Shown piece after piece: positions 414-11,742 of a stretch of 11,742 nucleotides of DNA (position 1 is the first letter of the stretch; every line of letters starts with the position of its first letter). The position numbers and the translations under genes were made by a program. Under the pieces are notes generated by a model that saw only the letters and a list, made by a program, of their open reading frames with translations, had not been told where the DNA came from and ran no database searches. The DNA comes from Nitrospinota bacterium (GTDB lineage: Bacteria; Tectomicrobia; Entotheonellia; J063): positions 1-11,742 of the forward strand of contig RFHZ01000235.1 of NCBI GenBank assembly GCA_003696125.1, read 5' to 3'.

Positions 414-1481
414 ATGCGCAAATGGCTGGTCATCCTGGTTGCAGGCATCCTCATCGGTTTCCTTGCTGGAGCAAAGGCGGAAGAGGCGTTCAAGGTCGGG
501 TTCGTCTATGTGGGACCGGTGGGGGATTACGGGTGGACCTTTGCCCATGACCAGGGGAGGAGGTATCTGGAGCAGCATCTCCCTGGGGTCAAGACAACCT
601 ATGTCGAATCGGTCTCTGAGGGGGCGGACGCAGAGCGGGTGATCACCAACCTGGCCCGCACCGGTCATAAGGTGATCTTTACCACCAGCTATGGGTACAT
701 GGATACGACGATCCAGGTAGCCCAGCGCTTCCCCCAGACCGTCTTTCTCCACTGTTCCGGGTACAAGCGTCGTCCCAATGTGGGGACCTATTTCGGTCGC
801 ATGTACCAGGCCAGCTACTTAACAGGACTGGTTGCCGGCAAGATGACCCAGAAGAACCTGATCGGGTATGTGGCTCCGATCCCGATCCCGGAGGTCATCC
901 GCATCATCAACGCCTTTGTCTTGGGGGCGCGTGAAGTAAATCCGGCGGTGAAGGTGCATGTGGTCTGGACCAATGCCTGGTACGATCCGGCCACCGAGAC
1001 CGAAGCCGCGAACAGCCTGCTCGATATCGGAGCCGATGTGATCGCCACGCAGAGCGATTCTCCGGCCCCGGTGCAGACCGCGGCCAAGCGGGGAGCGTAC
1101 GGGATCGGGTACAACTCTGATGCCAGCAAGTTTGCCCCGCAGAAGCACCTGGTATCGGCGGTATGGAACTGGGGACCGTACTACGTGCAGGTGGTCAAAC
1201 AGGTACAGGCAGGCACCTGGCGGAGTGAGGATGTCTGGTGGCCTATCGGGAAGGGGATGGTCGGGCTTTCCCCGTATGGTCCGGCGGTACCGGAAGAGGT
1301 AAAGGCGTATGTGGCACGGCGCAAGCAGGCGTTGATCGAGGGGAAATTCGATGTCTTCTGGGGACCGATCCGGGATCAGGGGGGGACGATGCGTATCGCC
1401 AAGGGGTACAAACCCTCGGATACCGAGCTGTTGAGCATGAACTGGTTTGTGGAGGGGATCGTAGGTACCGTGCCCCGCTAG
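414..1481 (+). CDS. BMP-family ABC transporter substrate-binding protein
   Basis: This periplasmic binding protein belongs to the BMP/Med family (COG1744), which captures nucleosides or related small solutes for the permease encoded just upstream. The product is 355 aa, normal for this subgroup. Residues 1-22 form a Sec signal peptide ending AKA before EEAF. No lipobox Cys is present, unlike PnrA/BmpA lipoproteins. Family landmarks are VGFVYVGPVGDYGWTFAHDQG (about 28-48; only its ends are diagnostic here), GRMYQASYLTGLVAGKM (128-144), IPEVIRIINAF (158-168), NAWYDP (187-192), SDSPAPVQ (214-221), IGYNSD (231-236), WNWGPYY (251-257) and MNWFVEG (342-348). The ATG is preceded by GAGGAG (401-406) with a 7-nt gap. 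The gene lies 65 bp after the permease and 45 bp before an ABC-2 permease, so all three are probably cotranscribed. The ligand is not readable from sequence; the SDSPAP-type subgroup is common beside purine or amide catabolism genes, which is only a hint. Confidence 0.93.
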   Translation: MRKWLVILVAGILIGFLAGAKAEEAFKVGFVYVGPVGDYGWTFAHDQGRRYLEQHLPGVKTTYVESVSEGADAERVITNLARTGHKVIFTTSYGYMDTTIQVAQRFPQTVFLHCSGYKRRPNVGTYFGRMYQASYLTGLVAGKMTQKNLIGYVAPIPIPEVIRIINAFVLGAREVNPAVKVHVVWTNAWYDPATETEAANSLLDIGADVIATQSDSPAPVQTAAKRGAYGIGYNSDASKFAPQKHLVSAVWNWGPYYVQVVKQVQAGTWRSEDVWWPIGKGMVGLSPYGPAVPEEVKAYVARRKQALIEGKFDVFWGPIRDQGGTMRIAKGYKPSDTELLSMNWFVEGIVGTVPR

Positions 1482-1526
1482 CTAAAAGGGGTCCCCTCTC
1501 AAGAGGGCTGGTGTAAAGGGGAGATC

Positions 1527-2684
1527 ATGTGGGAACGGGTGTACGAGATCATCAGGAAAGAGGTGTACCAGACCTTACGAGAGCCCCGGATGCGGATGGT
1601 GCTGATCTCTCCTCCCCTGATCCAGCTCATCATCTTCGGTTTTGCCGTGAATCTCGATGTGGAGCAGGCCCGGATCGCCTGGATGGACCTGGACCGTACC
1701 CCGCAGAGCCGGGCCTTGCTCTCCGCCTTTCAGGGGTCCAGGCATTTTCTGGTGACGCATGTGCTGGAGCGGGAAGCCGAGGTGCGGGAGTTGCTGGACC
1801 GGGGGACGGTACAGGCGGTGGTCCGGGTGCAGCCCGGTTTTGCCCGGCGTCTCCTCCACAACCAGACGGCCACGGTGCAGATCCTGATCGATGGGACCAA
1901 CTCGAATACCGCTTCCCTGATCTCGGTCTATACCACCCAGGTGATTGCCCGTTTCTCTGATCAGGCCCTCTGGGAAAGGGAGCGGAGAAGGCGGGTGGCC
2001 GTGAGTGTCGAAACCGGCACACCGGTCAATGTCCCTGCCCCTGGCATCTCTGTGCGGAGCCGTATCTGGTTTAATCCCGACCTGCGTAGCCAGCACTACT
2101 TTGTGCCCGGGATCATTGTGCAGGTGATCACGCTGGTGACCCTGATGCTTACCGCCATGTCCATTGTGCGGGAAAAGGAATTGGGGACCATGGAGCAGTT
2201 GCTGGTGACCCCGATTCGTCCTTATGAATTGATCCTGGGGAAGACGCTCCCTTTTGCCGTGGTGGGACTCCTGGAGATGGTGCTGGTAACGGTGGCTGCT
2301 CTGCTCGTCTTCCATGTGCCGCTGCGTGGACACTTCCTCCTCCTGATGGGATGCTCTGCCCTTTTCCTGATGACCAGTCTGGGCACCGGGCTGTTCATCT
2401 CCACCGTATCCCAGACGCAGCAGCAGGCGATGATGTCCTCCTTTTTCTTCATCATGCCCGCCTTCATGCTCTCCGGCTTTACCTTTCCTATTCGCAACAT
2501 GCCCCTGCCGATCCAGTATCTCACCTACCTGAACCCTGTGCGCTACTTCATGGAGATTGTGCGCGGGATTTTTCTGAAGGGGAGTGACATCACCATTCTC
2601 TGGCCGCAAATGCTCGCCCTTTTCCTGTTAGGCCTGGCCATCCTGGGGGCCAGTGTGCTCCGCTTCCGCAAGCGGCTTGAGTGA
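1527..2684 (+). CDS. ABC-2 type transporter permease (YhhJ/YbhR/YbhS-like)
   Basis: This is an inner-membrane permease of an ABC-2 type exporter (drug, lipid or cell-envelope substrate efflux class). The 385-aa protein has the usual layout. There is one N-terminal membrane helix (about 24-42), then a large soluble domain (about 43-190), then a five-helix block (about 192-212, 240-262, 270-291, 304-320, 360-377). Diagnostic family strings are FNPDLRSQHYFVPGII (182-197), SIVREKELGTMEQLLVTPI (212-230) and LNPVRYFMEIVRGIFLKG (335-352). The ATG follows AAAGGGGAGATC. The gene begins 45 bp after the BMP binding protein and appears to belong to that operon. It is odd in two ways: it is an export permease inside an import operon, and neither an ATPase nor the second permease usual for YbhFSR-type pumps is next to it. 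A homodimer served by a distant or upstream ATPase is the simplest inference. The transported substrate is unknown. Confidence 0.92.
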   Translation: MWERVYEIIRKEVYQTLREPRMRMVLISPPLIQLIIFGFAVNLDVEQARIAWMDLDRTPQSRALLSAFQGSRHFLVTHVLEREAEVRELLDRGTVQAVVRVQPGFARRLLHNQTATVQILIDGTNSNTASLISVYTTQVIARFSDQALWERERRRRVAVSVETGTPVNVPAPGISVRSRIWFNPDLRSQHYFVPGIIVQVITLVTLMLTAMSIVREKELGTMEQLLVTPIRPYELILGKTLPFAVVGLLEMVLVTVAALLVFHVPLRGHFLLLMGCSALFLMTSLGTGLFISTVSQTQQQAMMSSFFFIMPAFMLSGFTFPIRNMPLPIQYLTYLNPVRYFMEIVRGIFLKGSDITILWPQMLALFLLGLAILGASVLRFRKRLE

Positions 2685-2708
2685 TTCGGGCAAGAAGAGG
2701 ATTCGTAC

Positions 2709-2738
2709 TTGACAGGAAAACGCGGTTCCTGGGATAAT
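2709..2738 (+). promoter_or_regulatory. sigma-70-type promoter of the ugp operon
   Basis: TTGACA (2709-2714) is a perfect -35 box and GATAAT (2733-2738) a five-of-six -10 box, with an 18-bp spacer. It lies just after the ABC-2 gene and about 70 bases before the ugpB ATG, in non-coding sequence. I see no terminator between the ABC-2 stop and this promoter, so some read-through from upstream is possible. I see no obvious pho box, although ugp operons in enterobacteria are phosphate-regulated. Confidence 0.8.
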
Positions 2739-2795
2739 GAGGGGAAATCGAGCGTAGACACTTTCCCGGTCTATTGCTTCTTAACTTTTGTAGAA

Positions 2796-2802
2796 GAGGA
2801 GG
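2796..2802 (+). promoter_or_regulatory. Shine-Dalgarno sequence fixing the ugpB start
   Basis: GAGGAGG sits 7 nt before the ATG at 2810. It rules out the in-frame TTG at 2774, which would place the SD inside the coding region. The same GAAGAGGAGG string precedes the other binding-protein gene at 11211-11220. Confidence 0.85.
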
Positions 2803-2809
2803 CTCCACG

Positions 2810-4132
2810 ATGATGACCAAGTTCCGTCTCCACTATCTTTTGATCATCTGTTTTACCTTAACCTTATCCCTGGTCATGCTTCCCGCCCATGCCGAAGTGA
2901 CCATAAAGTTTTGGCATGCCATGTCCGGCTCGCGGATCGATCTGCTCAAAGGGATGGCCGAGCAGTTTAATAAGACCCATCCCGGGATCACTGTTCAGGC
3001 CCAATACATTGGGAGCTACAATGAGACGTTGAACAAGACCATTGCCGCGGTAAAAGCGGGTGATCCCCCCCATGTCTTCCAGCTCTATGAAGTGGGAACA
3101 CGGGGCATGATCGATGGGGGCATGATCGTTCCCATAGGCGATCTGGCCAAACCGGGCGAAGTCGATTGGTCAGACTACGTCGATGCGGTCATGTCCTATT
3201 ATACGATCGAGGGGAAGCTCTACTCCATGCCCTTCAACTCCTCTACGCCGATCCTCTATTACAACAAGACCTTTTTCCGGAAAGCCGGTCTCGACCCGAA
3301 CAAGCCTCCTGAAACCTGGAACCAGGTGCGGGAGATAGGGAAGAAGCTCATCGAGAGCGGGGTGGCAGAGTATGGAATCACCTGGAACCTCCATAGCTGG
3401 TATTTTGAGCAGTGGCATGCGGTACAGAACGCCCTGCTGGTCAACAACGGGAATGGCCGGCAGGGACGGGCCACCAAGGTCCTCTTTGATGGTCCGGTCG
3501 GGGTGAAGATCGTCAAGTGGTGGACCGATCTGGAAAAGGAGAAGATCTATTTGAACGCTGGCAGAGGATGGAGTAACCATCGCAAGGCGTTCATCAGTGG
3601 TCAGGCAGCCATGATGATCTCCTCCACCTCGGACGTCACCCAGATGACCAATGCGTTTAACGAAAAGGGCTGGGAACTGGGAACCGGTTTCTTCCCCCGG
3701 CCGGATGATGTCCCGCGGCAGGGGGTAATCATCGGAGGGGGAACGCTCTGGATAACAAAAGGGCATCCCCAGGAGGAGATCGATGCGGCCTGGGAGTTTG
3801 TGAAGTGGATGAGCATGCCCGAGCAGCAGGTCACCTGGCACAAAGGGACCGGGTACTTCCCCATCCGCAAGAGTGCCATGAAGCTCCTGGAAGAGGAGGG
3901 CTGGTATACCAAGTTCCCCAACTACAGGGTAGCGTTTGATCAGTTGCTGCAGACCAAAACCTCTCTGGCCACTCAGGGGGCGTTGATCGGGGTGTTTCCC
4001 CAACTGCGAGAGGCGGTACAGTCGGCTATCGAAAAGGTGATCGAGGGGAAAGCCACGCCGGAAGAGGCGCTGAAAGAGGCGGCACAGAAGACTAACAAAG
4101 AGCTGGAACGGTACAACGCCCTCTTTCAGTAG
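2810..4132 (+). CDS. ugpB: Glycerol-3-phosphate ABC transporter, periplasmic binding protein
   Basis: UgpB binds sn-glycerol-3-phosphate (or glycerophosphodiesters) in the periplasm and delivers it to UgpA/UgpE. From the ATG at 2810 the product is 440 aa, close to E. coli UgpB. Residues 1 to about 28 are a signal peptide ending AHA before EVTIKFWHAMSG, matching the family start (IPFWHSM in E. coli, from memory). Further shared motifs are QLYEVGT, MPFNSSTPILYYNK, a GGGTLW loop, WHKGTGYFPI and FPQLREAV, the last containing the Arg that aligns with a ligand-binding Arg of E. coli UgpB. The C-terminal EGKATPEEAL helix is typical. The next ATG, at 2813, is equally usable. The gene is the first of ugpB-A-E and has its own promoter and a strong SD. 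Specificity for glycerol-3-phosphate rather than another polyol or sugar is inferred from motif agreement and the UgpA/E partners. Confidence 0.9.
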   Translation: MMTKFRLHYLLIICFTLTLSLVMLPAHAEVTIKFWHAMSGSRIDLLKGMAEQFNKTHPGITVQAQYIGSYNETLNKTIAAVKAGDPPHVFQLYEVGTRGMIDGGMIVPIGDLAKPGEVDWSDYVDAVMSYYTIEGKLYSMPFNSSTPILYYNKTFFRKAGLDPNKPPETWNQVREIGKKLIESGVAEYGITWNLHSWYFEQWHAVQNALLVNNGNGRQGRATKVLFDGPVGVKIVKWWTDLEKEKIYLNAGRGWSNHRKAFISGQAAMMISSTSDVTQMTNAFNEKGWELGTGFFPRPDDVPRQGVIIGGGTLWITKGHPQEEIDAAWEFVKWMSMPEQQVTWHKGTGYFPIRKSAMKLLEEEGWYTKFPNYRVAFDQLLQTKTSLATQGALIGVFPQLREAVQSAIEKVIEGKATPEEALKEAAQKTNKELERYNALFQ

Positions 4133-4156
4133 GAGCCGTCTGGGGGCTTGATCCTA

Positions 4157-4194
4157 GCGAGTGCAGCGGGAGTAGGGAAGAGCGCTGCACTCGC
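4157..4194 (+). promoter_or_regulatory. Strong stem-loop in the ugpB-ugpA intercistronic gap
   Basis: GCGAGTGCAGCG (4157-4168) and CGCTGCACTCGC (4183-4194) are perfect 12-bp inverted repeats around a 14-nt loop. The stem begins 24 nt after the ugpB stop and ends 22 nt before the ugpA ATG. No T-run follows (CTGTGTGACC), so it is not a standard intrinsic terminator. The position suits an mRNA-stabilising or processing hairpin that keeps binding-protein mRNA more abundant than permease mRNA, as known for malE-malF. That role is inference; the repeat itself is directly visible. Confidence 0.8.
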
Positions 4195-4216
4195 CTGTGT
4201 GACCGGGACAAGGTTT

Positions 4217-5104
4217 ATGGAAGAAAAAGCGACCTTTAACAACAAGATACTCCCTTACCTCCTCCTGGCACCTTCCCTGTTTATTATCGGGTATTTTCTC
4301 TTCTATCCGACCTATGAGACCTTTCGTCTGAGTCTATACCGGCTGGGGCCTTTTGGCATTCGTAAGATCTTTGTCCGCTGGGAGAACTTCATCGACCTGT
4401 TCACCTCCCCCGATTATCTGCACAGCTTCAAGATCAGCCTCATCTTTTCCGCCTCGGTGGTGGTGTTTGGTCTGGCCATTTCCCTGGCCCTGGCGGTCTT
4501 GATTAACCGGGAGGTGTACGGGATCAACTTTTACCGGGCTGCCCTGATCTGGCCCTATGCCCTCTCTCCGGCCATTGCCGGTGCCTTGTGGGCTTTTCTC
4601 TTTGATCCCTCCTCCGGTTATCTGAACTACTTCTTCTCCCTCCTCTTCCATATCAAGCCGAAATGGCTCACCACCGGTTCTCTTGCTCTCCTGGTCGTCA
4701 CGGCAGCCGCAACCTGGAAGAACCTGGGTTACAATGTTATCTTCTTTCTGGCCGGCCTCCAGAACATTCCCAAGGATCTACACGAGGCGGCAGCCATCGA
4801 TGGGGCCAATCGCTTCCAGATCTTCTGGAAGGTGACCTTCCCCCTCCTCTCCCCCATGACCTTCTTCCTCCTGATCATGAACCTGATCTATTCCTATTTT
4901 GGCTCCTTTGGCTTGATCCATGTGATGACCGAAGGGGGACCGGCCAACGCCACCAACATCCTGATCTATGATCTTTACAAGGAGGCGTTTATCAATCATA
5001 ACTCTGGCCTGGCCGCGGCCGAGTCGGTGGTCCTGTTTGTCCTGGTGGTGGTCTTGACCCTTATTCAATTTGGAACCTCGGGAAGAAGGGTGCATTATCA
5101 GTAA
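4217..5104 (+). CDS. ugpA: Glycerol-3-phosphate ABC transporter permease UgpA
   Basis: This is one of the two inner-membrane permease subunits of the Ugp importer. From the ATG at 4217 it is 295 aa, the same length as E. coli UgpA as I recall it. It has a short cytoplasmic N-terminus and six hydrophobic segments (about 11-32, 73-96, 106-130, 154-180, 208-232, 267-286). The binding-protein-dependent permease EAA loop is EAAAIDGANRFQIFWK (190-205), which docks the ATPase. Other UgpA-like features are LPYLLLAPS, DPFG-like LGPFG, SGG-like TEGGPANATNILIY and a C-terminal RRVHYQ. A TTG at 4148 is in frame but lies before the intercistronic hairpin, which it would make coding, so I rejected it. The SD is weak (AAGG, 3 nt from the ATG), which would keep permease output below that of UgpB. 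The stop overlaps the ugpE start (TAATG). Confidence 0.9.
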   Translation: MEEKATFNNKILPYLLLAPSLFIIGYFLFYPTYETFRLSLYRLGPFGIRKIFVRWENFIDLFTSPDYLHSFKISLIFSASVVVFGLAISLALAVLINREVYGINFYRAALIWPYALSPAIAGALWAFLFDPSSGYLNYFFSLLFHIKPKWLTTGSLALLVVTAAATWKNLGYNVIFFLAGLQNIPKDLHEAAAIDGANRFQIFWKVTFPLLSPMTFFLLIMNLIYSYFGSFGLIHVMTEGGPANATNILIYDLYKEAFINHNSGLAAAESVVLFVLVVVLTLIQFGTSGRRVHYQ

Positions 5105-11173: not shown

Positions 11174-11213
11174 GGCGGCTGGCTTTCCCTTGCATGTTTC
11201 CCTATTTGACGAA

Positions 11214-11226: not shown

Positions 11227-11700
11227 ATGAGGAGAAGAATGATGACATGGGGTGGCCTCGGTCTGGGTATCCTCGTCCTGCTCTTCTTTACGGGAAAAGC
11301 ACTTCCAGCCCAGGAGGCTCCCATTCCCGTAGGTATCCTGGAACCGTTCACCGGTCCGGCCGGTTGGGTGGGACCGAACATCATGGAAGGGGCGAAGGTC
11401 GCCCTGGAGGAGATCAATCAGGCTGGTGGGCCTTTAGGGCGGCCGATTCGACTGATCAGTGCAGATACCGAGGGGAGGACCGATGCGGCTCTGGCCGCCC
11501 TCTCCAAGCTGGCCGATGTCGATCAGGTGGTGGCGATTCTGGGTCCCACTTCCCTGACCGCTGTTCCGGTTACTCGTAAGGTCGAGGAGGAAGTCCACGT
11601 CCCGATTGTGGACCCGACCGGTGGGACCTCAGAGATCGATAACATCGGGGGTGTATTGGCCATCACCGGTCCCATCAGGGTATCAGAGAGCTGGACCTGA
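11227..11700 (+). CDS. Liv-type (branched-chain amino acid family) ABC transporter binding protein, N-terminal part with artificial end
   Basis: This is a periplasmic binding protein of the Peripla_BP_6/LivK class, which feeds amino acids, amides or related solutes to LivH/LivM-type permeases. The open frame gives 157 aa, while full members have about 380-420. Residues 1 to about 28 are a signal peptide (MRRRMM basic start, GLGILVLLFF core, LPA cleavage). The mature part begins APIPVGILEPFTGPAGWVGP, followed by GAKVALEEIN (55-64), GRPIRLISADTEG (71-83), VVAILGPTSL (101-110) and PIVDPTGGTSEID (126-138), all family-like. After V143 the frame (LAITGPIRVSESWT and the TGA) is unlike the family. 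The sequence there is an inverted copy of downstream DNA, so residues 144-157 and the stop are probably artefacts. The reverse complement of 11657-11707 supplies the expected continuation, VWAFQVQLSDTLMGPVMA. The gene has its own promoter and a strong SD. The substrate is unknown. Confidence 0.85.
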   Translation: MRRRMMTWGGLGLGILVLLFFTGKALPAQEAPIPVGILEPFTGPAGWVGPNIMEGAKVALEEINQAGGPLGRPIRLISADTEGRTDAALAALSKLADVDQVVAILGPTSLTAVPVTRKVEEEVHVPIVDPTGGTSEIDNIGGVLAITGPIRVSESWT

Positions 11701-11742
11701 AAGGCCCATACACCCCCGATGTTATCGATCTCTGAGGTCCCA
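11622..11742. repeat. Inverted duplication at the window end (probable fold-back chimera)
   Basis: Bases 11622-11656 are the exact reverse complement of 11708-11742 (35 of 35). Pairing continues over 11658-11661 with 11703-11706 after one mismatch. The 51 bases between the arms (11657-11707), reverse-complemented and joined after 11656, keep the binding-protein frame open and family-like for 17 codons. The arrangement X, inverted Y, inverted X fits a strand-switch chimera at a contig end better than a real palindrome inside a conserved gene. Confidence 0.85.

Follow-up and report, generated by a model that had tools for sequence, protein, structure and literature searches.

The end of contig C550 is most probably a fold-back (snap-back) chimera, a reading to which we assign a probability of around 0.92, and the true gene runs from an arm X through a short segment Y into a second contig, C284, encoding a LivK-type substrate-binding protein followed by livH and livM. 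The window, i.e. the whole stretch of 11,742 nt that was analysed, is C550 in full, one whole contig of a draft assembly that comprises 4,182,615 bases (4.18 Mb) in 990 contigs, with a completeness of 94.8 % and a contamination of 8.0 %; a search of this draft for a 16S gene was negative. The first 10909 positions are occupied by transport and hydrolysis genes, i.e. the end of a permease followed by a Bmp-type binding protein, an ABC-2 permease, a sugar-type ABC set, a cyclase-family protein, a CoA-transferase III, and M28 and M20 peptidases. The true 5′ part of the livK gene lies at 11227–11656 on the forward strand (143 codons plus 1 base, with an alternative start of the ORF at 11194) and is supported by the ORF itself, by a match to positions 1–105 of the Peripla_BP_6 profile and by its in-frame join to C284.

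Inverted arms at the contig end

The original prediction, made from the window alone, described 11622–11656 and 11708–11742 as perfect inverted copies, and the two are indeed exact reverse complements over 35 nt, with the second arm flush with the final base of C550. For this perfect repeat the chance expectation in the whole window is approximately 1e-13; a repeat search extended the arms to 40 nt with one mismatch. In 1,388 interior windows of 300 nt, taken from 79 sampled contigs of the same draft, perfect inverted repeats reached 17 nt at most. The first arm (X, forward strand) is the genuine copy in gene orientation, while the second (X′, reverse strand) is the artefactual one. Between them lies Y′ (11657–11707, reverse strand), a gene segment shown inverted, the reverse complement of which encodes WAFQVQLSDTLMGPVMA and matches C284 7540–7590 exactly.

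Base 11656, a T, is compatible with either side of the junction, and therefore the 87 nt from 11656 to 11742 are entirely true reverse-strand sequence, i.e. the reverse complement of X (35 nt) and Y, so that the second segment is an inverted copy of a nearby genomic segment. Read in reverse, the far arm presents X and Y contiguously. The chimeric junction itself falls at 11656/11657, where the true next base is G (GGGCC) and not T, and where the acceptor TTT is short of one T.

The other half of the gene

Searching the draft with the end of the window identified C284 (7,594 bp), the end of which matches window positions 11649–11711, with its final 56 bases identical to 11656–11711. The reverse strand of C284 starts with GTATGGGCCTTTCAGG and continues as VWAFQVQLSDTLMGPVMAKYALDQGWKKGVLLFGNTG... 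for 276 residues, i.e. this other strand carries the protein onward in frame (VWAFQVQLSDTLMGPVMAKYA...) and then livH and livM, two BPD_transp_2 proteins (LivH/LivM-type permeases) located directly downstream of the livK part. The normal gene order is thus present in the same draft genome. The first four bases of that strand, GTAT, equal window positions 11653–11656; since C284 reaches just these 4 bases into X, the evidence that X and Y are adjacent comes from the far arm, from the reading frame and from homology. When 11656 is followed by the reverse complement of 11657–11707, the in-frame translation is IGGVWAFQVQLSDTLMGPVMA, as had been proposed, and the order X–Y deduced earlier from the window alone is now backed by a contig that shares 56 exact bases and carries the remainder of the gene in frame. 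The overlap with C284, the in-frame continuation and the far arm, in which X and Y adjoin, together lead to the true order X–Y–C284.

The continuation on C284 also bears on two biological explanations of the contig end. A contig that finishes in a fold-back would agree with a linear replicon closed by a natural hairpin, but the gene and its operon run on into C284, the supposed loop is a 51-nt stretch of coding sequence in inverted orientation, and a fold-back also terminates contig C25, where a carboxypeptidase gene starts. We therefore rejected a linear-replicon end, the probability of which is close to nil, on the grounds that the operon continues. Template switching in living cells yields the same geometry as the chimera, and the contig alone is silent on when the switch occurred, so an inverted duplication present in some of the cells, for which a replicating strand would have switched template at the imperfect inverted repeat of 8 nt within livK, has to be weighed as well. 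Against it, the intact order exists on C284, C550 breaks off within the second arm, and X′ followed by unique sequence is found on no contig of the draft; moreover, the flush fold-back at the end of C25 suggests that the cause lies in the sample or the assembly and not in this locus. We consider such a duplication improbable.

Downstream of livKHM and in the same direction, C284 harbours a three-subunit molybdenum hydroxylase-like gene set (941–4635), with subunits judged by eye to be the large, the 2Fe–2S and the FAD subunit. No ORF for a LivG/LivF ATPase was found between livKHM and this set on C284. The Liv transporter may serve a substrate of the molybdenum hydroxylase-like enzyme.

The joined protein and the LivK family

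Joined in the order X (to 11656), Y and C284, the gene encodes a protein of 418 aa, which matches Peripla_BP_6 (PF13458) with 145.1 bits over profile positions 1–342 of 343, at a score cut-off of 31.7. Taken separately, the as-given protein from 11227 scores 76.6 bits (1–105) and the C284 part 61.8 bits (122–342), the two pieces covering complementary halves of the profile. The comparison with LivK homologues that had been suggested as a check of the joined protein thus came out in its favour: the joined protein fills the profile and matches solved members of the family (residues 29–320, e.g. 3td9) as expected for a LivK-type binding protein, in contrast to the as-given version, which lacks everything beyond the first third.

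The alignment with three full-length homologues, which come from other genomes and in two cases from the same class, passes through the join at 27–29 % identity (WAFQVQLSDTLMGPVMAKYALDQGWKK versus YVFRTCPSDALQGVVAGKLAKDLGFKK), and the homologue segment FRTCPSDALQGxVxGxLAK stands opposite WAFQVQLSDTLMGPVMAKYA of the joined protein. The as-given ORF, on the other hand, ends in the tail VLAITGPIRVSESWT with a stop codon at 11698–11700 on the forward strand, which arises from Y′ being read in the wrong orientation. The warning that this stop and C-terminal tail should not be trusted was well founded, as LAITGPIRVSESWT is absent from all three aligned full-length homologues while the joined order continues in frame. 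In phmmer searches the false tail aligned weakly to 4obb, up to residue 152, which is taken as a chance continuation because the joined protein gives a higher-scoring alignment to the same family (residues 29–320). The stop at 11698–11700 and the tail LAITGPIRVSESWT are not real, and neither they nor any residues past V143, nor the last 86 bases as oriented, should be used. Many more LivK-like proteins are encoded elsewhere in the draft.

The switch site

The proposed priming site is GGGTGTAT at 11649–11656 on the forward strand, with an inverted partner, ATACGCCC, just past Y (C284 7531–7538, other strand). The two match in inverted orientation at 7 of 8 positions, and this is the sole partner with at least 7/8 matches in the 1,026 bases around, lying exactly at the switch; the strand therefore probably annealed there and was copied back. 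The complementarity of GGGTGTAT and ATACGCCC at the junction presupposes the loss of one T; counted strictly, the exact overlap amounts to 1 nt, or to 4 nt (GTAT) if one base was lost.

In the mechanism that we propose, a forward strand ending in ...GGGGGTGTAT (11656) would pair with a forward strand, 52 bases further on, by way of the imperfect inverted repeat GGGTGTAT/ATACGCCC of 8 nt. Backward extension would then copy Y as Y′ and X as X′, with one T of TTT lost at the start. At least one such chimeric read would have entered the assembly, whereupon the contig would turn onto its own reverse strand and stop, the real continuation being left over as C284.

The same repeat could be read as a genuine invertible switch, in which Y flips in place between short inverted repeats and some cells carry X–Y′ followed by the rest of the gene, given that Y in the true order is flanked by the imperfect pair GGGTGTAT/ATACGCCC. 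An inversion in place predicts ATACGCCCTGGACC after Y′, whereas the window has ATACACCCCCGATG, a reversed copy of X; likewise, the right flank after Y′ was predicted to be ATACGCCCTGG and observed to be ATACACCCCCG, by which an invertible element was excluded. In addition, the repeat is short (8 nt, one of them mismatched) and is located within a coding gene, and there is no recombinase among the main genes of the window, all of which makes a switch exceedingly unlikely.

A pure assembler error without any chimeric molecule, i.e. the misjoining of the graph paths of both strands at a shared word, would fit the 56-nt end common to C284 and C550, which resembles a graph overlap. Yet the exact identity across the junction is 1 nt, which becomes 4 nt (GTAT) when a lost base is allowed for, far too little for a k-mer collapse, and we regard this explanation as very unlikely. 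As indicators of the k-mer of the assembler, the overlap of 56 nt and the reversed tail of 87 nt disagree, and end-to-end overlaps were not found among the other sampled contigs. With its short inverted repeat, the switch site favours a molecule primed by fold-back over a pure assembler error. We thus infer that the join goes back to a chimeric molecule and not to the assembler alone; this molecule would have arisen during amplification or during library preparation, between which we make no choice.

Chimeras of this inverted kind, with priming at short complementary stretches, are well documented (PMC1855051, PMC4595205, PMC10908179). In multiple displacement amplification (MDA), more than 85 % of the rearrangements were inverted in the study by Lasken and Stockwell 2007 (PMC1855051), and the end of C550 resembles these chimeras in that the second segment is inverted, genomically nearby and joined at a short complementarity. 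MDA inverted chimeras mostly overlap by 5–8 nt, with a peak at approximately 6 nt, and their distance peaks at 250–300 nt (PMC4595205). C550 differs from them in its distance of 52 nt and its small exact overlap of 1 nt, and MDA in particular is therefore not indicated. Library artefacts at natural inverted repeats, in which the sequence between the repeats is reverse-complemented in the read (the PDSM model, PMC10908179), are similar in that Y of C550 is inverted between GGGTGTAT and ATACGCCC; they were, however, described in human hybrid-capture libraries, whereas the case of C550 is known from an assembled contig end alone.

A second fold-back in the draft

We surveyed 158 ends of 79 readable contigs of the draft. 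Inverted repeats of at least 25 nt were found at two of the 158 ends (C550 and C25, both flush) and in none of the 1,388 interior windows (Fisher p = 0.01), a small number to which C550 contributes as the contig that prompted the survey. In C25 (12,697 bp), the inverted repeat at 12533–12697 is perfect over 52 nt, extends to approximately 74 nt with one mismatch and is flush with the end. Its centre is the palindrome GTGAGATCTCAC, and the start of an S13 D-Ala-D-Ala carboxypeptidase gene falls within its arm. In the mirrored reading the mismatch replaces R by K, which may reflect a second strain; a continuation of C25 was not found in the draft. Another, dispersed palindrome, GGGGCGACGCATGCGTCGCCCC, occurs in 2 of the 79 sampled contigs (C25 3228–3259 and C907 15–44) and is perhaps a small repeat family.

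In this draft, a truncated or novel protein end at the end of a contig should be accepted only after the ORF has been examined for a flush inverted repeat. The finding at the end of C550 is an ordinary artefact that truncates livK, and not biology; its practical outcome is the correct join of C550 and C284, and with it a complete livKHM gene set in the draft.
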